Of a stretch of DNA of 38,015 nt, positions 15,801-33,297 are shown piece by piece. Each line of letters opens with the position of its first letter. Positions within the stretch are counted from its first letter, which is position 1. The notes beneath the pieces are model-generated. The model searched no databases and had not been told where the DNA came from. It saw nothing but the letters and a program-made list of their open reading frames with translations. A program made the position numbers and the translations under genes. Source of the stretch: a virus; IMG/VR virus record IMGVR_UViG_3300025141_000291, positions 1-38,015 of that record; one strand, 5' to 3'.

Positions 15801-16333
15801 TGTTTTGCAGTGGGCCCAGTAAACTTTTTAATATCTTTAACGTGAAGCTCTCCGGCAGTACTAACTGGCTTACCCTTGATCTGATGAAGCAGGTGATGGC
15901 TGTCAGTCTGTCCGGTTTTATCAATTATTTCACTAAGGCTTGTAGCATCTTGATCAAATTTTCCACTATTTGAATACTGACTCAATGAAACTGATGCCTG
16001 GGACCCGCCTGCGTATTCAACAAATACACTTTCTGCACCCTGATTTTCTGGCGGAGGAAGACTGTCACCTCTATTTGAGGTAGCTGCCCTTGTATTTCCT
16101 GGACTGACGTTGAATACAACGTCTTCATTTTCCTGTATAAAGTTTAAATAGTCTCCTAGAAGACCCTCATCTGTAGCCATGTTGACAAGTTCTTTTCCAG
16201 TATTCGGATCAATTCCAAGATCGTCTCCTGTGCCTATGCTCCCATCGCCAGAATCATCTCTCACAGTATAGGATACAGAATCTGCTCCCGATCCAATTGA
16301 AGTTAAAAAATCTCTTAATGTTTCTCTGGCCAA
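12827..16333 (-). CDS. Baseplate structural protein with tail-tube-initiator-like domain
   Basis: This protein has 1168 residues. The N-terminal half (1-600) is Ser/Asp-rich and not recognised. Residues about 630-770 are the most distinctive: YVPFYFHDIRTNEITSFHAF, then GYGRMDAVQTYSNTKRDISF, a DEMWLKINKLTTLVYPQW segment, and SPLVRVRIGDIV. Near residue 1090 comes TPWEIDWGSRAPQVCKVTITF followed by PIHDIPPG. This order, with a rigid-body strand, a W-K-N-L-YP segment, a PLVRVRIGD strand and a terminal strand, resembles gp48/gp54-type tail-tube cap and initiator proteins. The family link is by pattern only. The start is TTG with GAGG about 7 bases upstream, overlapping the upstream 88-residue gene by 19 bases. 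The gene ends next to the LysM baseplate gene. Confidence 0.62.
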   Translation of the reverse strand: MARETLRDFLTSIGSGADSVSYTVRDDSGDGSIGTGDDLGIDPNTGKELVNMATDEGLLGDYLNFIQENEDVVFNVSPGNTRAATSNRGDSLPPPENQGAESVFVEYAGGSQASVSLSQYSNSGKFDQDATSLSEIIDKTGQTDSHHLLHQIKGKPVSTAGELHVKDIKKFTGPTAKQEKNLVNASVNILKNHNRFSPAGSTLGDAFVERGKQDDEFSTDPAFTVQREFGKYDETFMSSIESLSEIGESLLRASSQILSTNIDDDSFPEKILTGIDPVNKIVPSDIRAKNSDGFPELLSGDSTRQGRGEFLILSETESSNSYGSMTGKGDAAFDPINKKYLRVRAAASIKTMILAIESFKDIALNSCDNINSKIDSANTPMLMGEHKRYIQFRMSVVMNSMFTPTDRPYKSCVNAGAKFMLGLDKNISEIKDRKNAKGPGTSRLVKNSPGFALALSRSILLSVESLNKILDSEGSSDYDSAENARAILEKISKTRVIGILNSLAIIGDIRLKIKRSRSEDFGMTRSSNPWSVDDLPDGPTTRISKSRTSDGFNVSALSMRTSATPSSFVLPKGVIRAVSRMGMSSTDTNPARLLASPSGKKIFMGEGIKDGGRIPSEVVHRMEDLLDAEYVPFYFHDIRTNEITSFHAFLDSLQDGYTANFTESTGYGRMDAVQTYSNTKRDISFTFTVAATSPEDFDEMWLKINKLTTLVYPQWSLGDVLSSGENTFIQPFSQVLASSPLVRVRIGDIVKSNYSKFNIGRIFGVGYEATNMKLPASGGILGAIGDAIRSGLSILDSLDELFLKAFLVAFGSPLQIQKAFGTNFGSSLPGPAASALIGSATKLLENGFANPFLNVILKKYRDPDNEPSESAASSGNLAARLGNAISSIGDSLDGYAKPNGKNPKNRFFGVRAFVKPSQSKSYRVVAKDGEEYSSIKKIRFNRPVLGIVLGRRFIQTSKSKDRDNRDNDKSRSVTLYRIKLIDFNIPSDLFGAEIEISHSDIVHDPKDTFSRFMMPILNPGAAIGAFAQNLANEGAQALGLDVSGVNIALSDEQRFLSADKNAIIRSFESTRGRGLAGVIKGLKFDWLTENTPWEIDWGSRAPQVCKVTITFAPIHDIPPGIDNEGFNRAPIYNVGKLAQSMAGDAYDDGGQSSKETYEFEHRKNFKNE

Positions 16334-16581
16334 TCTAGCACCTCAACACCTACATTTTCTTCCATGTCACTCATACTTATGGCCTTCCCAAGGTTGTCAA
16401 AAAAATCAACAATTTCATCCTCAGTCTTGAGCTTAGACTCCATGATTGAAAGAGATTTATTAAAATTTTTAATAATTGACGTCATCTCTGTCAAAAGGCT
16501 GTTCTTCTCCTCTTCCGTGAGATCCTCTAATAACTCCTGAATGTAGGGATCTCTCTCAAACTCTAAAAGTATATCCTTCAT
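16315..16581 (-). CDS. Small acidic helical protein between tape measure and baseplate genes
   Basis: This 88-residue protein is rich in Glu, Asp, Leu and Lys and is predicted to be almost all helical; I see no catalytic motif. The ATG overlaps the tape-measure stop in an ATGA arrangement, and the 3' end overlaps the next gene by 19 bases, so it is embedded in a translationally coupled tail operon. Such overlaps and its composition suggest an assembly factor or a small inner tail/baseplate component, but no family is recognised. A short Trp-Pro-Glu-Lys-His end (WPEKH) follows two predicted helices. The name is deliberately general. Confidence 0.68.
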   Translation of the reverse strand: MKDILLEFERDPYIQELLEDLTEEEKNSLLTEMTSIIKNFNKSLSIMESKLKTEDEIVDFFDNLGKAISMSDMEENVGVEVLDWPEKH

Positions 16582-18774: not shown

Positions 18775-19014
18775 TCACTTGAAACTTCTTTTGTCAGAGC
18801 CCATTAGATTGACAGTAGGTCCCGTGTCCTCGGTTATCATATTCTGCTCTCTCATTTGGTTCCGCTTCTTTACATCCTGGACAAGCTTTTCAATAAACCA
18901 TCTTCTGTATCTAATGGGCATTCTCCTGCACTCATCGTAACCCATTCCAAGGTGCTTAATGAGAGTAAATATCTCTTCTAATACAGATAATCTGTAACTA
19001 GAGCTTAGGCCAAA
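18775..19014 (-). CDS. C-terminal extension of the tail-assembly chaperone, reached by +1 frameshift
   Basis: This frame lies +1 to the upstream 284-residue gene. It stays open from about 19040 and ends at a TGA at 18775-18777, giving 79 residues after the slip. It has no ATG, GTG or TTG start until an ATG at 18945, which lacks a good ribosome site and would cut off the helix RLSVLEEIFTLIKHLGMGYDE. The remainder, RMPIRYRRWFIEKLVQDVKKRNQ, is strongly helical and basic. The coding quality before the first start and the T7 run at the junction support expression as a fused 358-residue product. Tail chaperones made by frameshift (lambda G/GT type) sit in exactly this place, between the tube and tape-measure genes. 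The +1 (or -2) shift is inferred. Confidence 0.72.
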   Translation of the reverse strand, partial: FGLSSSYRLSVLEEIFTLIKHLGMGYDECRRMPIRYRRWFIEKLVQDVKKRNQMREQNMITEDTGPTVNLMGSDKRSFK

Positions 19015-19852
19015 AAAAGCTTGAGCCCATGGGGAGGCTCACCTCCGAAACTCTTCCACATGCTTTGCAGTCAAGTTTTCCGATCATTTCGATTCCAGGT
19101 TCATTTTCACTTATATATTTTCTCAGCCTGCTAGAATCCATTGCAGGCATGCTTTCAATAAACTTTGAAATTTTATTTCTATCTTCTATTCCATCAATAG
19201 ACAGGACAGAAAATTTAAGCCTTCTCGTTACAGTGCTTCCGATATAGTCGTCTGGAAACAGCTGAGCCATCTTCTTAGATTCAGCCTCAATTAAATCATT
19301 ATCCTTTCCAGTGAGAAATTTAAATCTAACAGTCTTCTTTGTGACCGGTAGCTTATACTCAAAGCAATTTTGACCCTCAGTGACAGGAGATATCTTCAAT
19401 CTCTTTATAGGCATATCTGCTAGGTTAAATGTTCTGAGATCAACAGATAGACATTTTGGACATGTGGAGTTTGCATTATATTCCGGACCGTAACCTGTGA
19501 TTCTAACTGCGACCATAAGTGCATTTCTGTCTCCCACAAGAAGATCTTCAACTCTGATGTCTCCATCCATTATGCATGATCTAAGTAGCTCAATTATCAC
19601 AGTTCCATTTGCTGCTAGTGCCCTAGAAGATAAGATATCCTCCTCTTTTGCAGTCATTGCCTTTATATTAACTGTACTCTTTCCATGCATTGGGCTTCCG
19701 GGTGGGTAAAGAATACCGTTTGAGGGAAGCGGAACAGCTTCAACTGGAATCTCCCAGCCAAAATCTTCAGAAAGAACATTTCTCGTTGGAATTCCATGCT
19801 GCTGCCCTCCCTCAGAAAAAATCTTATTTCTATCCTCTCTAGAATTTGACAC
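18998..19852 (-). CDS. Tail/baseplate assembly protein, T4 gp26-like, with four-cysteine zinc site
   Basis: This 284-residue protein carries two CxxC pairs, C131/C134 (CPKC) and C262/C265 (CKAC), a likely zinc site. The second pair is followed by a strand and SSFFWPKL before the stop. This resembles the T4 baseplate-hub assembly protein family (gp26-like) used in early tail assembly. The start is GTG with AGGAG 8 bases upstream. The zero-frame end runs through TTT TTT TGG, where a one-base forward slip joins the 79-residue extension at 18775. Zero-frame product and fused product would be the short and long chaperone forms. It follows the tail tube gene and precedes the tape measure. The chaperone role is inferred from place and gene structure. 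Confidence 0.72.
   Translation of the reverse strand: MSNSREDRNKIFSEGGQQHGIPTRNVLSEDFGWEIPVEAVPLPSNGILYPPGSPMHGKSTVNIKAMTAKEEDILSSRALAANGTVIIELLRSCIMDGDIRVEDLLVGDRNALMVAVRITGYGPEYNANSTCPKCLSVDLRTFNLADMPIKRLKISPVTEGQNCFEYKLPVTKKTVRFKFLTGKDNDLIEAESKKMAQLFPDDYIGSTVTRRLKFSVLSIDGIEDRNKISKFIESMPAMDSSRLRKYISENEPGIEMIGKLDCKACGRVSEVSLPMGSSFFWPKL
19012..19018 (-). other. Candidate +1 frameshift slippery site (T7)
   Basis: Seven T residues in the coding strand read TTT TTT TGG in frame, 12 bases before the in-frame stop. A one-base forward slip of Phe-tRNA gives TTT TTT then GGC and enters the open +1 frame. Loss of one U by polymerase slippage would have the same effect. No stable stem was identified downstream by eye. 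Confidence 0.6.
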
Positions 19853-20498: not shown

Positions 20499-23400
20499 CT
20501 AGACTTCCGCACCAGCATTTGTGACGACAAAGTCAAGAGCAATAAACTCAGCTGTTCTAGTCGGCTGAACAAAGATCTTTCCTCTGATGGTATTATTCTC
20601 TATATCTGCTTGTGTGGTTGTGGTTGTGTCAATAATGACCTTGTAGCGATCAAGTCCACTCTTTTCCTGAATCTTTTGCAGGATTGGATTGACCAAGCTT
20701 GTAAATTTCTCTAAAGTTGACTCTCTATTTGGTTCGAAGAGAAGCGTGTTTGCTATTCCTCTAACCTTTCTTCTAATATCAATTAGAAGTCTTCTAACAT
20801 TAACTCTATCCAGAGCAGAAGCTGCTGAAAGAAGCGTCTTCTGTCCCCAGACTACGACACCAGTTCCCGGGAAGTCAGTAATTGGGTTAATATCTGCATC
20901 ATAAAGATTGTCAAGGTTTGCCCTATTAAGATCAACAGATGCCTGTACAACTGATGATAGAGCACCTCTTGAGAATCCTGCAGGTGCGAACCATGGATGT
21001 CCAAGTGCGTCATTAAGTGAAAATGCACCAAGAACAGCCACAGAAGGTGGACATCTAACATTTGTTCTTGTTACTGGATCCTGAATTACTACATCAGGGA
21101 AGTATGCAGCTGCAAATGATGAGTCTAGTGCGCGATTCTTAAATGCTGTTACTGTGTCACTAACATTGATATTTTGAACAGAGGATGTAACAACGTTGTT
21201 TAATACGTCTCTCTCTTCAATATCCATAATGTACATAGAGTCAAATCTATTTTCGACTGCATCTACCGCATAGTCTGTAATTGACTCGTCTCTCATTCCT
21301 GGAACAGCTAAGAGCTTAATCTCAACATCAGATCTATTTGCCATGATGTCGATAGCCTTTCTAAACGAAGCCACTGTGGGGCCTTCTTTTCCTCCTTGAT
21401 TTGTGGAGTCGTCCATCTCTCTCTTTGCAGCATTATCTCTTAGCTTTGCCTTGTCTTCATTGAATATATTTGTTCCATTAAATCCTCCTTGTAGGAAGAA
21501 TGTAAACTTAGCATATCTTCTGTTTCCAACTAAGCCAAGGTCATCAACTGAAAATGCTCTTGTCTTAAGAGTTCTATCTATTGATATTCCTCCCGCTCTA
21601 ACATATGATGCGCTGACCCATTCTTTTGGATCAGCATTTCCATCAGATCCAGTTCTAATCTTAATCCTCTCAAGAGAGAAGATGTTATTATTAAATCTAT
21701 CTGAATCTAAGATTCCGTTCGCAACTGTATCTGCTGTTCCAGCATTATTTCCAACAGAAAACTTCTGATTATCAAGTGAGAAATCTGGAAAATACTTTGC
21801 ATAATTTGCAAGAGACATGTCAAATAGATCTGGCTTGTTCGGTTGAGTGGGATCTGTCTTTCTAGATGACTGAATACCCCAGAATAGCTGTGCTGATGTT
21901 CTCTTCTTATTTCCTGTTCCAAAGTTTAAGTGCCCTCTGAATGGAATTGGCGGCTCAACAGTTAGCTTCATAGATCCAGTGAGATCATCCTCGAAGTTTG
22001 CAGCGCCGTGTCCCAGAGTTGCAATAACATCTGACCCTGATGTTACAAGGTGATTAGGTCCCCTAAATCCCATGGGAAGTGCATTATCAGGAACCTCTCC
22101 AGCCTTTTGTGAAGCTCCGATCTTAAGTCTAATATATTTAGACTGATTTGGGAAGTCTCCATCTACGACTAGCTTTTGTGAATCTGATGATTGGTCGAAA
22201 TCAAAGTATATCTTTTGATCACCTATGACTCTTGCAAAATACCTTTCAGACTCAGGATCCATCGATAGACCTCTAAATGACTCAAGTACAACCTTCTCTT
22301 CATCTGTGTCGAAGAAGTCTCTAACAACTAGGTCAAACTTTCCAAACCTATTAACATCAGAATTTGACTTAGCAAGGTTTTCAATTGAAACCTTATAGCT
22401 AGTGCTAACTGTGTCACCATCAGAAAGTGCCTCTACTCTAAATAGCTCGTATGGCCTTCCACCAAAGTTTTGAGATATAACATACGGTGACTTAGCGGTT
22501 GTAAACCTATCTTCAAATGATCTATATTCTGGAATTGTTGAGCTTCCACCAGCCTGTCCAACAGCACTTATCGATCCAGTTGTAATGAATATGCAGTCAT
22601 TATAATCAGCGTGTGATGTCGCTCCTTCACCAGAGATTCGCTCTGTTGCACCTGGTGTTAATACTCCAGATCCAGTTGGGACTGCCATTGATGAGTGTAT
22701 GTCGTAATGAGAGTATAGAAGGTGACCTGCCTGCTCTATTAGTGTAGGATCTGTATTAAAGACTCTTGAAATATAGGATGGAGAATTAACATCAAAAGAT
22801 GCTGATATAATTCTGCTGTAAGCACCTGTTCCCTTGAGGCCATTTAAGAAGAGAACGAAATCTTGATTACTTACTGTCATCGATCCAGTTAACCCACCTC
22901 GCAGTGAAGAGTGGCCTAGCTGTCCAATCGCATCCGAAGCCGGTCCGCTTCCTGGAGCTGTTACCTGGTAGTTTCCAGATAGTAGCGGCATAACACCAGA
23001 TGCTGAAAATAGAACACCTCTGAGGATTGGAATGGCGCGATTGTCATCAACACCTCCGGTAAATCCTGAGATTGTATAAATATTATCAGCTGTTACAACT
23101 GCGCGCGTAATCGTTTTATTACCTACGTATCCGCCCAATGCCTGTGTTAAAGTAAGAGTATCGTTTGCTGCATCTGCTGTTGACACTGCTATTGTGATTG
23201 CGCCGTTGTGCCCATTTGCACTTTCAATCGCAGCTTTAATTTGAGCTGCTACTTCACCAGCTGTTGTCTTACCGTTAATCTGTATTCTAACATTACCTGA
23301 TTCATCCACAGTACCAGTTGCATCGTCGTCGTCGTCGTCAAAAATATATGTTTTTGTCGTACTATGGCCGCTGGTTATAGTTAGTGTGCCCGCATCATAC

Positions 23401-23930
23401 TGTGAAACTGTTGCTGATACTGCCACTATTGTGGCTGTGGCAGCTGTTTGAGAAGTTTCCTGTATTCCCGCATCACTAAAGTATGTGCTACCTGCTGACT
23501 CTGACATGTAGCAGCCTATGAAGTGAACATTTCCTCTTTCTCCGCTTTCATTTGCGTATGGGTTTGCACCTATGATTCCATTTGCCTGTACCTGTTCTGC
23601 ACCTACAACAAATCCTGCGTTTGTCACCTTACCAGAAGAAGTGTTTCTCTTCTTTCCGTCTCCGACACCGAGAACTCTTACGTACGTAAGCGCTTGTGAA
23701 TTTTTTAACCACTCACTAACAGCAAGTGGTCCAAACTTTTCACCATCTGTCTCGCCAAATGTAGCTACGAACTCTGAAAAATTAGCAACTGTTACGGGTA
23801 CAAATGCCGGACCAAGGTCGGCAGTTCCAATAACACCTGCAGGAACACCCACAGGGCCCGTAACACTTGGTGTTGAAAGATCAATTTCTCTTGTGCTAAC
23901 ACCTGCACTTTTGAATGTCAACTCAGCCAT
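20499..23930 (-). CDS. Tail sheath protein, paralogue B, with inserted Ig-like module
   Basis: This 1143-residue protein has the sheath N-terminus (TFKSAGVSTREIDLS, then PAGVIGTADLGPAFVPVTVANF) and a typical sheath C-terminus: HPWFAPAGFSRGAL, VVWGQKTLLSAASALDRVNVRR, and PTRTAEFIALDFVVTN. Between residues about 161 and 296 sits a module with IFDDDDDDATGTVD, VRIQINGKTTA and NGHNGAITI that is absent from the adjacent paralogue. The two genes are related along most of their length. T4 gp18 has 659 residues, so both sheaths are large. The ATG at 23930 has GGAG 9 bases upstream; a TTG at 23945 is less likely because it lies within the ribosome site. Two sheath types may build one contractile sheath together. 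Confidence 0.93.
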   Translation of the reverse strand: MAELTFKSAGVSTREIDLSTPSVTGPVGVPAGVIGTADLGPAFVPVTVANFSEFVATFGETDGEKFGPLAVSEWLKNSQALTYVRVLGVGDGKKRNTSSGKVTNAGFVVGAEQVQANGIIGANPYANESGERGNVHFIGCYMSESAGSTYFSDAGIQETSQTAATATIVAVSATVSQYDAGTLTITSGHSTTKTYIFDDDDDDATGTVDESGNVRIQINGKTTAGEVAAQIKAAIESANGHNGAITIAVSTADAANDTLTLTQALGGYVGNKTITRAVVTADNIYTISGFTGGVDDNRAIPILRGVLFSASGVMPLLSGNYQVTAPGSGPASDAIGQLGHSSLRGGLTGSMTVSNQDFVLFLNGLKGTGAYSRIISASFDVNSPSYISRVFNTDPTLIEQAGHLLYSHYDIHSSMAVPTGSGVLTPGATERISGEGATSHADYNDCIFITTGSISAVGQAGGSSTIPEYRSFEDRFTTAKSPYVISQNFGGRPYELFRVEALSDGDTVSTSYKVSIENLAKSNSDVNRFGKFDLVVRDFFDTDEEKVVLESFRGLSMDPESERYFARVIGDQKIYFDFDQSSDSQKLVVDGDFPNQSKYIRLKIGASQKAGEVPDNALPMGFRGPNHLVTSGSDVIATLGHGAANFEDDLTGSMKLTVEPPIPFRGHLNFGTGNKKRTSAQLFWGIQSSRKTDPTQPNKPDLFDMSLANYAKYFPDFSLDNQKFSVGNNAGTADTVANGILDSDRFNNNIFSLERIKIRTGSDGNADPKEWVSASYVRAGGISIDRTLKTRAFSVDDLGLVGNRRYAKFTFFLQGGFNGTNIFNEDKAKLRDNAAKREMDDSTNQGGKEGPTVASFRKAIDIMANRSDVEIKLLAVPGMRDESITDYAVDAVENRFDSMYIMDIEERDVLNNVVTSSVQNINVSDTVTAFKNRALDSSFAAAYFPDVVIQDPVTRTNVRCPPSVAVLGAFSLNDALGHPWFAPAGFSRGALSSVVQASVDLNRANLDNLYDADINPITDFPGTGVVVWGQKTLLSAASALDRVNVRRLLIDIRRKVRGIANTLLFEPNRESTLEKFTSLVNPILQKIQEKSGLDRYKVIIDTTTTTQADIENNTIRGKIFVQPTRTAEFIALDFVVTNAGAEV
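23043..23450 (-). other. Domain insertion within sheath paralogue B
   Basis: Residues about 161-296 are a self-contained Ser/Thr/Ala-rich module with a D6 run, encoded by five GAC and one GAT codons at 23322-23339, and a TITSGHSTTKTYIFDD-like strand pair. The two sheath paralogues align to its left and right, so an insertion in one copy is the simplest reading. The module type is common in structural proteins of aquatic phages (by memory of such sequences), suggesting exchange between phage genes. Edges are approximate. Confidence 0.65.
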
Positions 23931-23968
23931 TCTAGTCTTCTCCAAAAACTCTTATCATTAAATATAAA

Positions 23969-26900
23969 TTACTCAAAGCTTACACCTGAATTAGTGACGA
24001 TAAAATCAACAGCAATAAATTCTACTGCCCTTGTTGGAACAAGGACTATTCTTCCATTTAGCCTATTTGACTCAATATCTTCAACTGTGTTATTGCTTTC
24101 ATCCATAATAACCCTAAACTTATCTATACCCTGTTGATTTTGAACTGTAGAAAGTAAAGGAGTAACCTGAGATATGAATTTTGCCCTAGTCGTAGGTGTA
24201 TTCTGCTCAAATACAAGCTTCTTGGCAACATCTGAGACTAGCCTCTTGACCTCAAGTAACATTCTTCTAACATTTACTCTATCTAGTGCCGATCTGGCCT
24301 GCTGTAGTGTTTTTTGTCCAAATATAACATATCCTGCCTGTGGAAATGATGCTATTGGATTAATTCTTGAATCATAAAGATCATCTCTGTCAGCGCTATT
24401 TAGCCTTGTGGCTGCATTAGAGACATTTGATAGTGCAGCCCTATTAAATCCTGCAGGTGCGAACCACGGATATGCTACTGAATCATTAAAGCCAAGTGCA
24501 CTTAGCGCTGCTATTGATGCAGGAACTCTTACAGGTGAACCTGTTCTATCATCTGTGATGCTAACATCTGGGAAGTATGTAGCTGCATAGTTGTTATCTA
24601 TTGCCCTTCCATCAAAAGTTTCCTTTGTCTTTGATACGCTTGGCTTAAGATCATCACTGTCAAATATTCTCACACTAGAATCTGTGTAGCTTGGAATATC
24701 CATAAGGTATATTGCCTGGCTATAGTCTCTTGTCTTATCTGCAGCATGATCTGTAACGAAGCTATCTCTTATTCCAGGAATTGACAAGATATTGATTCTT
24801 GTAATCATTGGATCAGTCATTATATCTATTGCAGATTTATAGGATGCTACAGTTGCATTATACCTGCCGGCACCAGATGTTGAAGAAGAGTCTAGCCCAA
24901 TATCTAGATCACCACCTGCTGCGGGTGCTGTTATAGATGCCTTTCCTCTTGCGTCACCTGAGCTAGCTCTGTCATTCATTCTAGACATGTCTAGGTCTAG
25001 AATATTAGTTCCATCAAACCCGCCGTGCATAATGTTTGTGAACTTCATGTACTCACTAAATCTATTAAAATATACAGATGACGTTAGTGTTAGAAGTGAA
25101 GCAAAAGTAAGCCTGTGATCAGTAGCTGTTTTCTCTCTAATTGTGTAGTTCTTTCCTGGGCTGATTCTTCCATTTCTAATGTAAGCCGCTTCTAACATGT
25201 GCTCTTTTGCTGTTCCAGTTAAATTTGAATCTACAGTTGTAATTAGTGCCCTCTTTGTACCCGCAGAGTCAAGAGTCGTGCTTAGAGCAACCTTTCCAAG
25301 TGTAAACCTATTATTAGAGAATGCATCTGCTCCAGAACCTGTAACAAGCGCGTCGAGCTTTTTGATTCCGAGAAGCTTAGTATATGTTCTAACAAGTTCA
25401 TTTGTCTCAGAAGATGCATTTGCATTTAAAACTGCATTTCCTAGTGAGCCTGTTCTAGGGCACCTTGTTGTCTTTACACCCCAGTAATACTTGCTATTAA
25501 CTCTCTCATTTGTTCCAGGGTATCCTGCATATCCAGACTTCGCTGCAGTTCCCTGCGTGACCTTGAATGTCATAGGTACTGGTGGAACAATAGATCCTGA
25601 AAGATGGCCATCTTCTCCGTATGCAGTTGTACTTCCTGATACAATCCCTAGCCTGATTCCGCCAGATCCGCCATTAAGAACATCGTCTTTAATTCTACTA
25701 GGAACTTCAGAAATTATTGTAGTATCAGCGAGAAGGTTATTTGTCTTTAGTACAGGAAGACCTCTAAATCCAAAAGGCAATGCACTAGCTGGAACATTTC
25801 CATTCTTAAGATCATCACTAAATACTATCCTTACCCTGCTTGAAACATTGGGATAGTCGCCGCTTATTACATATCTTCTTTCATCTGGATCAAGTGTGTC
25901 AAAGTTATACTTAACACTTAGATCGCCGATCTTTCTTCCGACAAAGTTCTCATCATTTGGATCTAGTGTGCAGAGAGGATATTGCTCAAGTATTTGAGGT
26001 GCTGTATCTGAATCATCAAATGCCCTTACTTGAACTGTGAATGATCCATACTCATTCTTTGGATCTGTTGACTTTCTAAGATTTGCTATTGAAACCTTAT
26101 ACATGTCGCATGTATTTTTACCATCTGCAAGGGTCTCGAAGTAGAACAGATCAAAGACTGTAGTTCCAAAGTCCTGAGATGTAAAGAATGTAGTTTTTGA
26201 TGGACTGTATCTTGTATCAAATCTTCCGTACATGTCTCTGTATGTAAGAGATGTATCTCCTGATCCATCAGATGTCTGTGACGTTCCAGACATGACGCCA
26301 ACATAGCTTGCAGCTGATGCAACCTCATCCTCAACAGCAAAATCTGCGTAAAGAAGGTGTTGTTCTGCCTGAAATCTATTCGGGTCAGTATTCAGTATCT
26401 TTGCAATATAGTCATCATTTGTAGGATTTAGAGAAGCAGTCATAATTCTAATTCCTGATATTCCATCATCACTTGCAAATGTAGATCCAACAGAGCTAGA
26501 GATGACAATTTTAAACTTCTTATATGTGTCAGATGAATTTTCGTCTGTACCCATTCTTGCAATGTCTTCTAGAGACGCTGAGGTTGGGTATGTTCCATCA
26601 TAGTTTAGTAGCTGGACTCTGCTTCCTGTTGATGAAAATATCATAGCTCTAACGAGGAATACATCTCCTCCTGCTGCTACATTAAAGCTATCATTATCAG
26701 TAAATACTGGATAGCCAAATGTCTCCCATGAATGGACTTCATGCTTTGCACCTATAAACTGAACAGCACCCTTATAGCCTTGCTTTGAACCCTGTGCTTC
26801 TGTTGCAACTGATCCTTTAATTCTAAACCCTGCATTCTTAACAGTTCCTAGATTTGTGGTATTGTGAATATCGGTACTATTTTCATTTGCGCCCGCACCG

Positions 26901-27157
26901 AGGACTCTCATGAAAGTAACAGCTGTTCTATTCTTAAGGAACTCATTTACAGCATATGGTCCAAATTTTGTTGAATCTAAGTCACCAAATCTTTCCTTAA
27001 AGTCAGCAAATGATCCAACAGTTACTGGAATAAATGCTGGACCAAACTCTGATGTCCCAATGACTCCTGCTGGAATTCCTGCAACTTCTTGAACTCTTCC
27101 TGAGAGGTCGATCTCTCTTTCAAAAAATCCTGGCGATCTGAAGGTCTGCTCGGCCAT
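23969..27157 (-). CDS. Tail sheath protein, paralogue A
   Basis: This 1062-residue sheath homologue is placed first in transcription. The N-terminus has FFEREIDLSGRVQ and PAGVIGTSEFGPAFIPVTVGSF; the C-terminus has YPWFAPAGFNRAAL, VIFGQKTLQQARSALDRVNVRRML, and PTRAVEFIAVDFIVTN. These last segments fit the sheath C-terminal domain that contacts the tube and the next ring. The middle differs from paralogue B and lacks its extra module. Length is about 1.6 times T4 gp18. AGAGGAG lies 9 bases before the ATG, and the stop is 38 bases before the paralogue B start. Both genes are intact, so one may have a specialised place such as the tail end, or they may alternate; this is inference. Confidence 0.93.
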   Translation of the reverse strand: MAEQTFRSPGFFEREIDLSGRVQEVAGIPAGVIGTSEFGPAFIPVTVGSFADFKERFGDLDSTKFGPYAVNEFLKNRTAVTFMRVLGAGANENSTDIHNTTNLGTVKNAGFRIKGSVATEAQGSKQGYKGAVQFIGAKHEVHSWETFGYPVFTDNDSFNVAAGGDVFLVRAMIFSSTGSRVQLLNYDGTYPTSASLEDIARMGTDENSSDTYKKFKIVISSSVGSTFASDDGISGIRIMTASLNPTNDDYIAKILNTDPNRFQAEQHLLYADFAVEDEVASAASYVGVMSGTSQTSDGSGDTSLTYRDMYGRFDTRYSPSKTTFFTSQDFGTTVFDLFYFETLADGKNTCDMYKVSIANLRKSTDPKNEYGSFTVQVRAFDDSDTAPQILEQYPLCTLDPNDENFVGRKIGDLSVKYNFDTLDPDERRYVISGDYPNVSSRVRIVFSDDLKNGNVPASALPFGFRGLPVLKTNNLLADTTIISEVPSRIKDDVLNGGSGGIRLGIVSGSTTAYGEDGHLSGSIVPPVPMTFKVTQGTAAKSGYAGYPGTNERVNSKYYWGVKTTRCPRTGSLGNAVLNANASSETNELVRTYTKLLGIKKLDALVTGSGADAFSNNRFTLGKVALSTTLDSAGTKRALITTVDSNLTGTAKEHMLEAAYIRNGRISPGKNYTIREKTATDHRLTFASLLTLTSSVYFNRFSEYMKFTNIMHGGFDGTNILDLDMSRMNDRASSGDARGKASITAPAAGGDLDIGLDSSSTSGAGRYNATVASYKSAIDIMTDPMITRINILSIPGIRDSFVTDHAADKTRDYSQAIYLMDIPSYTDSSVRIFDSDDLKPSVSKTKETFDGRAIDNNYAATYFPDVSITDDRTGSPVRVPASIAALSALGFNDSVAYPWFAPAGFNRAALSNVSNAATRLNSADRDDLYDSRINPIASFPQAGYVIFGQKTLQQARSALDRVNVRRMLLEVKRLVSDVAKKLVFEQNTPTTRAKFISQVTPLLSTVQNQQGIDKFRVIMDESNNTVEDIESNRLNGRIVLVPTRAVEFIAVDFIVTNSGVSFE

Positions 27158-32380: not shown

Positions 32381-33259
32381 TTAATCAAAAATATATCCAA
32401 ACTTTTCTTCCCACATTGAAAGCTTATCAGCTATATGAGAAATGGTCCACTCGTTAAAATAATTCTGGTATGGCATTTTTATCTTTCTCTGACTGCTTTT
32501 TAACCTAGGGAGTGTTGAAGTAGGTATGTTGATATCTTTGCAAAACTTATCATAGTCTGGTTGAAGATTCTCGTATCTAAGAATATAGTCATAATCTTCT
32601 TGATAGTATTTTTTATTTATATCTACAAACCAGTCAAGAACATTCCTATTCTTTTCAAGTCCAAATGGCCCTCTAAAGTCTCCGCGTAGCTGGCAAAATA
32701 TCTCGAGCTTCTGGCGTAGTGTTTCTGCACTATCTAGCAGTGTTGGTGCTGCTTCTGGATGACTTGAAGGAGTAAAACCTAGATCACCATCACCTTTGTG
32801 TGCGACGCCATTGGAATCAATGTATCCGCTTTGTGAAGGATAAAAAGACCACCAGAAAAATGAGACAATCATATCCCAAGGATTTCTCACTATGGTTACT
32901 TTTTTATATTCACTTCCAATAGACATTAGATCTAAAACCTGCTCAGGTAGCGCATGCATGTGAAATTTTGGCTCTAAGATCTCTACTCTCAATCCTGATT
33001 TAATCATTTCAGGCGTGACTTTGTGAATATTTCCACTTTTTTTCATTATCTCTATTGCAACATCACCCTTGTGTGTATGTCTCACTATATTATTTCTAGT
33101 TGGATATTCATAATCACTTGATGAAATCTCATCTATGTGGTTTGTACCCGTTAAAATATCATCATCGCTACAGTGTCTACTTAATGCAGCTTCAACACTA
33201 GACCCTGCAACCTTCATTGGCTTAAAGAATATAAACTTATTCTTGTGTGAGATAATCAT
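32381..33259 (-). CDS. Sulfotransferase-family protein
   Basis: This 292-residue protein has the two PAPS-site segments of sulfotransferases: KPMKVAGSSVE (residues 13-23), the 5'-phosphosulfate loop, and VRNPWDMIVS (124-133), the 3'-phosphate RNP-x-D-x3-S motif. FHMHALPEQV (99-108) lies where the family has its histidine-rich strand. Such enzymes transfer sulfate from PAPS to sugars, lipids or proteins; the target here is unknown, with host surface or virion glycans as options. It lies between the capsid terminator and the decoration-like gene and is AT-rich, consistent with an added single gene. The ATG at 33259 has no ribosome site. TATAAATT lies 14 bases upstream and could be a phage late-type promoter for a nearly leaderless RNA. 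Confidence 0.85.
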   Translation of the reverse strand: MIISHKNKFIFFKPMKVAGSSVEAALSRHCSDDDILTGTNHIDEISSSDYEYPTRNNIVRHTHKGDVAIEIMKKSGNIHKVTPEMIKSGLRVEILEPKFHMHALPEQVLDLMSIGSEYKKVTIVRNPWDMIVSFFWWSFYPSQSGYIDSNGVAHKGDGDLGFTPSSHPEAAPTLLDSAETLRQKLEIFCQLRGDFRGPFGLEKNRNVLDWFVDINKKYYQEDYDYILRYENLQPDYDKFCKDINIPTSTLPRLKSSQRKIKMPYQNYFNEWTISHIADKLSMWEEKFGYIFD

Positions 33260-33297
33260 TCTAAATAGTATCAATTTATATCAATCAGTTAACAGAT

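Follow-up and report, generated by a model that had tools for sequence, protein, structure and literature searches.

A predicted +1 ribosomal frameshift on UUU-pyrimidine in a gp26-like tail gene of a virus with T4-like genes

The gp26-like gene and the overlapping frame

The virus record IMGVR_UViG_3300025141_000291 (IMG/VR class; 38,015 bases, all of which were analysed and are called the window below) carries T4-like genes on its minus strand. One of them is a gp26-like gene whose last codons overlap a second open frame, and a +1 frameshift is predicted to join the two. The gp26-like gene (19852-18998, minus strand) has a GTG start and encodes a protein of 284 residues with two CxxC motifs, which is predicted to be the short form of a tail assembly chaperone. 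The protein matches PF12322 (T4_baseplate, the gp26/gp51 family) at 1e-15 with 58.5 bits, above the curated cut-off of 24.5, and phrog_150 at 6e-16. A preliminary description of the locus, made from the DNA letters and their translations, had called it a gp26-like zinc protein. The AlphaFold model of the protein has a pLDDT of 88, and a fold search of BFVD with it led to phage baseplate hub proteins. The fold search of the PDB gave no match at E 0.001 or better, and the sequence search of the PDB gave no useful match, its small E-values being to designed repeat proteins with no stretch passing alone.

The 3' end of frame 0 reads TCA AGC TTT TTT TGG CCT AAG CTC TAG, and the stop (TAG, 19000-18998, minus strand) is reached four codons after the start of TGG. 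The predicted shift site, TTT TTT TGG with the slip on UUU-U, is located at 19018-19010 on the minus strand and was assigned from the sequence and from the motif in relatives. The +1 frame is open from 19038, upstream of the site, to 18778. Beyond the site it forms an extension of 78 codons, from GGC (Gly) to AAG (Lys), which is followed by TGA at 18777-18775 (19011-18775 in all, minus strand) and has a homologous peptide in relatives. The fusion predicted after a +1 slip is 358 residues long, 78 of which are added; the preliminary description had counted 79. The first ATG, GTG or TTG of the +1 frame past the site, and thus the first possible independent start, is the ATG at 18945-18943 (minus strand), 66 nt on; its place is not conserved in relatives. 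The stop just past the site, the opening of the +1 frame upstream of it and the start-free stretch after it had all been described correctly before.

The motif TTT TTT TGG occurs in frame once among the 19 open reading frames of the window that were counted. Among the codons of the window UGG is uncommon (57/10,870), and no tRNA genes were found in this DNA. A -1 shift at this place was considered and rejected: the -1 frame of the window shuts 5 nt past the site, and the base preceding the Phe pair is C, not T.

Conservation of the site and of the extension

Two samples of relatives were collected. The first was a protein scan of viral contigs, from which the best 80 loci were taken; together with the window and the phages immuto, Mel-JY01 and RM378 it comprises 83 loci, 80 of them distinct after three duplicates had been dropped. 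Among the best 80, locus L014 is incomplete, 77 of the 79 others have a TGG CC word near the stop, and the remaining two, L047 and L078, have TGG TCT and TAC CCT. The word at the site of the 80 distinct loci is TTTTTT_TGG_CCT in 65, TTTCTT_TGG_CCT in eight, TTTTTT_TGG_CCA and TTCTTT_TGG_CCT in two each, and contains TGG_TCT, TAC_CCT or TGG_AAT in one each. The stop is 3-6 codons from the TGG position. An in-frame TTT followed by T or C is present just before the stop in 80/80 distinct loci, compared with 56 of the 391 TTT codons that lie upstream within these genes (Fisher 9e-54, a value which overstates the association since the motif had been used in part to pick these rows). A second sample was examined for this reason.

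The second sample consisted of a scan with the Mel-JY01 protein (80 loci) and a scan with Streptomyces phage proteins (5 loci). The stop is reached in 83 of these 85 loci, all 83 of which contain TTT-Y (Y being a pyrimidine); 14 are duplicates and 69 are new and distinct. TTTTTT_TGG_CCT is found in 60 of the 69, CTTTTT_TGG_CCT in three and TTTTTT_TAC_CCT in two, while the other four have CTG TTT, then CAG, CGC or CGT, then GAA. A length rule called 65 of the 69 as +1. The four that it missed, two of which are cut by the contig end, have the homologous peptide in the +1 frame when the reading frames are inspected. TTT-Y and a +1 extension are likewise found in seven out of seven further named relatives (LR756508, three Streptomyces phages, SP-15, LIS04 and GXN1). 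In LR756508 and the three Streptomyces phages, the overlap contains no shift-prone tetranucleotide other than TTT-C among the kinds scanned; the sites of GXN1, pSt2308 and BRock are UUU_CGN.

The homologous extension is in the +1 frame in all complete loci of both samples, and about 150 distinct loci keep both frames. The preliminary description had proposed as a check that the two frames, or a single fused one, should recur in related phages; both arrangements are found, the second in T4 gp51. These counts also bear on an error of sequencing or assembly, to which long T runs are prone and which the preliminary description had allowed might have split one continuous gene. The same split is present in the roughly 150 distinct contigs and in the isolates immuto, Mel-JY01, SP-15, LIS04, RM378 and BRock. 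For the family as a whole such an error is refuted, and we give it next to no probability.

The frame past the site has the properties of coding sequence. Over 500 locus pairs, the similarity of the peptides read past the site scores 114 in +1, versus 33 and 34 in the other two frames. Shuffling the 270 nt past the site 200 times never gave an equally long open frame for the window; over 76 loci the fraction averaged 0.005, with 0.03 as its largest value. The complete extensions of the first sample (n=76) have a median length of 72 codons and range from 54 to 90. In an alignment of 51 of the +1 peptides, the positions F1, F2, G3, L4, Y31, P34 and R38 are invariant or nearly so.

Could this peptide be the product of a separate small gene, which starts inside the +1 frame (for example at ATG 18945) or is coupled to termination? 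Some ATG, GTG or TTG is present in 71 of the 76 complete extensions, and certain relatives with the extension in the -1 frame, described below, have an ATG at a conserved distance of 5 nt from the stop (the cyanophages) or the overlap TAATG (Cygsa01 and LR756511). In the +1 group, however, the first start is not fixed in place: 5 of the 76 have none, ATG is absent from 15, and in 47 no start precedes nt 60, although the peptide is conserved right from the site. A separate gene is very unlikely here.

In the named +1 phage records examined, the extension lacks annotation or corresponds to small hypothetical genes. It is annotated in immuto (L081:3839-3949) only as a hypothetical gene of 36 residues; the other +1 records have a small hypothetical gene or none.

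The T run itself distinguishes among the ways in which the second frame might be reached. Seven T are present at the site in the window and in 69 others of the 80 distinct loci, as would suit RNA polymerase slippage, by which mRNAs with two extra U or one fewer would give the long protein by normal translation. In the remaining ten loci a T run longer than 4 is absent (e.g. TTT CTT TGG, TTC TTT TGG) and the extension is still in +1, as it is in the Streptomyces phages with only TTTC; polymerase slippage is accordingly improbable. The uninterrupted homopolymer by which programmed transcriptional slippage is recognised is thus not conserved. A -2 shift would reach the same frame, with one residue more in the product, and is permitted by TTTTTTT, but at TTC TTT TGG and TTT CTT TGG the P-site tRNA would face mismatched codons, and we regard it as highly improbable. 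A +1 ribosomal shift is favoured over polymerase slippage, a -2 shift and sequencing error because the ten loci without the T run keep the +1 frame. The preliminary description had left +1, -2 and polymerase slippage open; the relatives would decide for the first of these.

What the sites have in common is UUU followed by a pyrimidine, on which tRNA-Phe can pair again after moving into the +1 frame. In E. coli, UUU-Y is a shift-prone word. The best model, which on the evidence of the sequences is very probably correct, is that the gene makes a short and a long product, the latter by a +1 slip of the P-site tRNA-Phe at UUU-Y. The majority of ribosomes would terminate at TAG 19000 and release the 284-residue gp26-like protein. 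With tRNA-Phe (anticodon GAA) in the P site on UUU and U as the next base, some ribosomes would slip one base forward, the tRNA would re-pair on UUU, and reading would continue with GGC CUA AGC to yield the 358-residue protein with its 78-residue C-terminal extension. We infer the ribosome as the agent of the shift, and likewise its efficiency. A chaperone function on the tape measure protein would follow by analogy with lambda gpG/gpGT and T4 gp26/gp51: both forms would be chaperones of tail assembly, and the long one would recruit the tube subunits. By the same analogy the products would bind the tape measure and tube proteins and be missing from the virion.

Several observations weigh against a +1 slip. 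No +1 stimulator was found around the 80 sites by anti-Shine-Dalgarno pairing or folding z-scores. Folding downstream of the sites is near random (mean z -0.33) and structure upstream is slight (mean z -1.13, with 21% below -2). No Shine-Dalgarno-like sequence was seen apart from a match some 27 nt upstream in 65% of loci, which does not resemble the RF2 element. The extension and the gene, being in different frames, could in principle be joined by some other start mechanism. The comparative support is nevertheless strong, and the arrangement for which the frameshift is predicted is both real and conserved.

The lambda G/GT tail assembly chaperone frameshift was reportedly described by Xu, Hendrix and Duda in 2004. 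As the preliminary description proposed, the analogy fits in position and layout: the gene lies between the tube gene and a predicted tape measure gene, and the long form would be the short form plus a C-terminal extension. Two overlapping frames that are conserved in relatives, a mark of G/GT-type systems, were found here, with the predicted joining shift near the end of the first. The lambda-type shift, however, is -1 on a heptamer, whereas that of the window would be +1 on UUU-Y, with a PF12322 zinc-motif protein in frame 0. Phages mostly use -1 in their tail chaperones, and a +1 version with a UUU-Y rule seems to be new; no paper with a +1 shift in this gene was identified in the literature searched.

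Shifts by +1 are known from other systems. In the passages available from PMC5009743 (Atkins et al. 2016), the Listeria phages PSA, A118 and A500 are described as having +1 shifts in structural genes by P-site slippage, as here, but on CCC-U before a stop (tail shaft) or a sense codon (PSA capsid). The same passages give RF2 (prfB) as a +1 P-site slip on NUU-U, with UUU_U in a minority of species; a slip at UUU_U is also predicted for the window, whose site differs in having UGG in the A site and no close Shine-Dalgarno sequence. They also call a +1 shift 'very likely' for the tail chaperone of the halovirus HSTV-2, which, as far as that account goes, resembles the present case as a myovirus tail chaperone and differs in belonging to an archaeal virus. 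According to an excerpt of PMC3498833, tRNA-Phe slips from UUU to UUC at UUU_CGU of influenza A PA-X, by the same re-pairing reasoning, and an excerpt of PMC5052127 reports UUU_CGN +1 sites in plant amalgaviruses. From these excerpts, a tRNA-Phe slip is common to both and is predicted for the present family, in which GXN1, pSt2308 and BRock share UUU_CGN; the eukaryotic ribosomes and unrelated proteins are different.

Relatives with a -1 frame and the T4 proteins

In the jumbo-type relatives (121Q, CBB, RaK2, XacN1, Atu_ph07, Vibrio 2.275, SCTP-2, XaC1, MIJ3, CM1 and one IMG sequence in two contigs) and in Rhizobium IC12, the extension is in the -1 frame. These twelve loci have the heptamer T TTT TTC, or T TTT TTT in XacN1 and CM1, at the same Phe-Phe position; the base preceding the Phe pair is T in only 1/80 of the +1 group. 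Single-sequence scans for relatives with the gp26 of SP-15, CM1 and MIJ3 gave 1, 0 and 3 loci.

In every one of the cyanophage-type loci (L113-L192, 80 loci of which 52 are distinct, and L108, e.g. L108:3170-3200) the heptamer T TTT TTC stands shortly before the stop, and the homologous extension is in -1 in nearly all of them. The exceptions are L134 (identical to L135) and L192, which have the heptamer and a -1 frame interrupted within 22 nt. In 98% of the 52 distinct cyanophage loci, a gap of about 10 nt separates the -1 heptamer from the end of a strong Shine-Dalgarno-like match upstream of it, which fits a dnaX-like stimulator. The cyanophage-type loci also have an ATG 5 nt past the start of the stop codon, annotated in Sf-FS3 as the start of a baseplate hub assembly catalyst. 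In LR756511 (L088) and Cygsa01 (L110) the -1 extension begins at a TAATG overlap and may be made by reinitiation, not by frameshifting. For the cyanophages and Cygsa01, where an ATG overlaps the stop or closely follows it, the extension could well have a start of its own. The short cyanophage gene annotated gp51 would be the gp26 extension. Cyanophage gp51 has, in the part of PMC3037559 concerned, about 20% of the usual length and similarity only at the C-terminus, and the gp26-extension reading offers a reason for this short 'gp51'.

T4 gp26 and gp51, the hub assembly chaperones, both match PF12322, and gp51 carries a C-terminal extension; the difference from the window is that two genes take the place of one shifted gene. 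On phrog_150 (282 positions) gp26 covers to 235 and gp51 to 280. Among 16 records, two PF12322 copies are present in T4, Aeromonas 31 and Citrobacter Xman and one in eleven (in one of these in two pieces), and none was detected in two. T4-like phage tail assembly chaperones are said, after Vladimirov in 2022, to be made without frameshifting. As cited in a passage of PMC12846349, Vladimirov et al. 2022 reported a -1 frameshift at a poly-T site in T4-like phage tail chaperones; so cited, the system has a poly-T site in the same kind of gene, with the direction -1 versus +1 here. G-T frameshifting is widely conserved 'except T4' in the wording of PMC5009743, as excerpted.

HHalign comparisons show the +1 extensions to be linked to T4 gp51 through a chain of homology that would run via the -1 extensions. 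The cyanophage extensions match the gp51 C-termini at 98%, and the +1 extensions (with the SP-15-type and Streptomyces-type) match the -1 extensions at 96%; three reversed controls gave 0.1, 0.2 and 7%. The cyanophage extension also matches phrog_634 ('baseplate hub assembly catalyst') at 7.9e-27 and the tail of phrog_150. Other comparisons speak against the connection. The +1 set alone is weak against gp51 (35%), and 91% was obtained only with the +1 and -1 extensions pooled against the cyanophage and gp51 sequences; the +1 set had earlier been compared, on thinner data, with whole gp51 of three phages, and the value was 0.3%. Only 3 of 51 +1 members touch phrog_634, and weakly, and the window extension has no match to it.

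In a tree of 56 proteins, a single branch (100/98) separates the nine T4-type rows from the rest, and four labels need 5 changes compared with a shuffled mean of 24.5. The tree unites T4, the cyanophages, the jumbo phages and the group of the window, in which homologous products are obtained by +1, by -1 or from two genes. No order of +1 and -1 is claimed, because the tree was rooted arbitrarily and has several long branches (those of Aeromonas 31 and Xman gp26, RM378, IC12). We lean towards the view that the gp26/gp51 family kept a short and a long product, the long one being made by +1 on UUU-Y, by -1 on U UUU UUC or U UUU UUU, or from two genes (T4 and its kin). The same Phe-Phe pair would serve both directions, with the flanking bases setting the direction, and the +1 branch would be a large family of bacterial viruses that shift at UUU-Y on a sense codon, like influenza PA-X. 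The family would offer a set of natural variants in which the direction of the ribosomal shift appears to depend on one or two bases, with Bacillus SP-15, Rhodothermus RM378, Flavobacterium immuto and Streptomyces BRock among its named isolates.

Neighbouring genes

The gene order on the minus strand is two long sheath-like genes, tail tube, the gp26-like gene, the extension and a gene of 717 codons. The tail tube protein (20443-19952, minus strand) matches phrog_4542 at 3e-26, and the tail sheath protein (23945-20499, minus strand) matches phrog_23 at 4e-65. The gene that follows the extension (18731-16578, minus strand; 717 residues) is predicted by its position to encode the tape measure protein; it had no significant family match in PF and PHROG profile searches, and in the records of immuto and LIS04 the tape measure annotation is on the gene that follows the extension. 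Of the placement between tube and tape measure given in the preliminary description, the tube is supported by its family match and the tape measure by position only. Other T4-like genes of the window encode UvsX, gp32 and the major head protein.

The adjacent long genes 20499-23945 (1148 residues) and 23969-27157 (1062 residues) are related in that the first matches tail sheath families and the second starts similarly, so that the sheath seems to be both duplicated and enlarged. Among the head genes, the gene at 32381-33274 partially matches a phrog of galactose-3-O-sulfotransferase (2.8e-9). A second run of seven T is found at 16405 (minus strand), inside a small gene (16315-16581) which overlaps the start of the next large gene.
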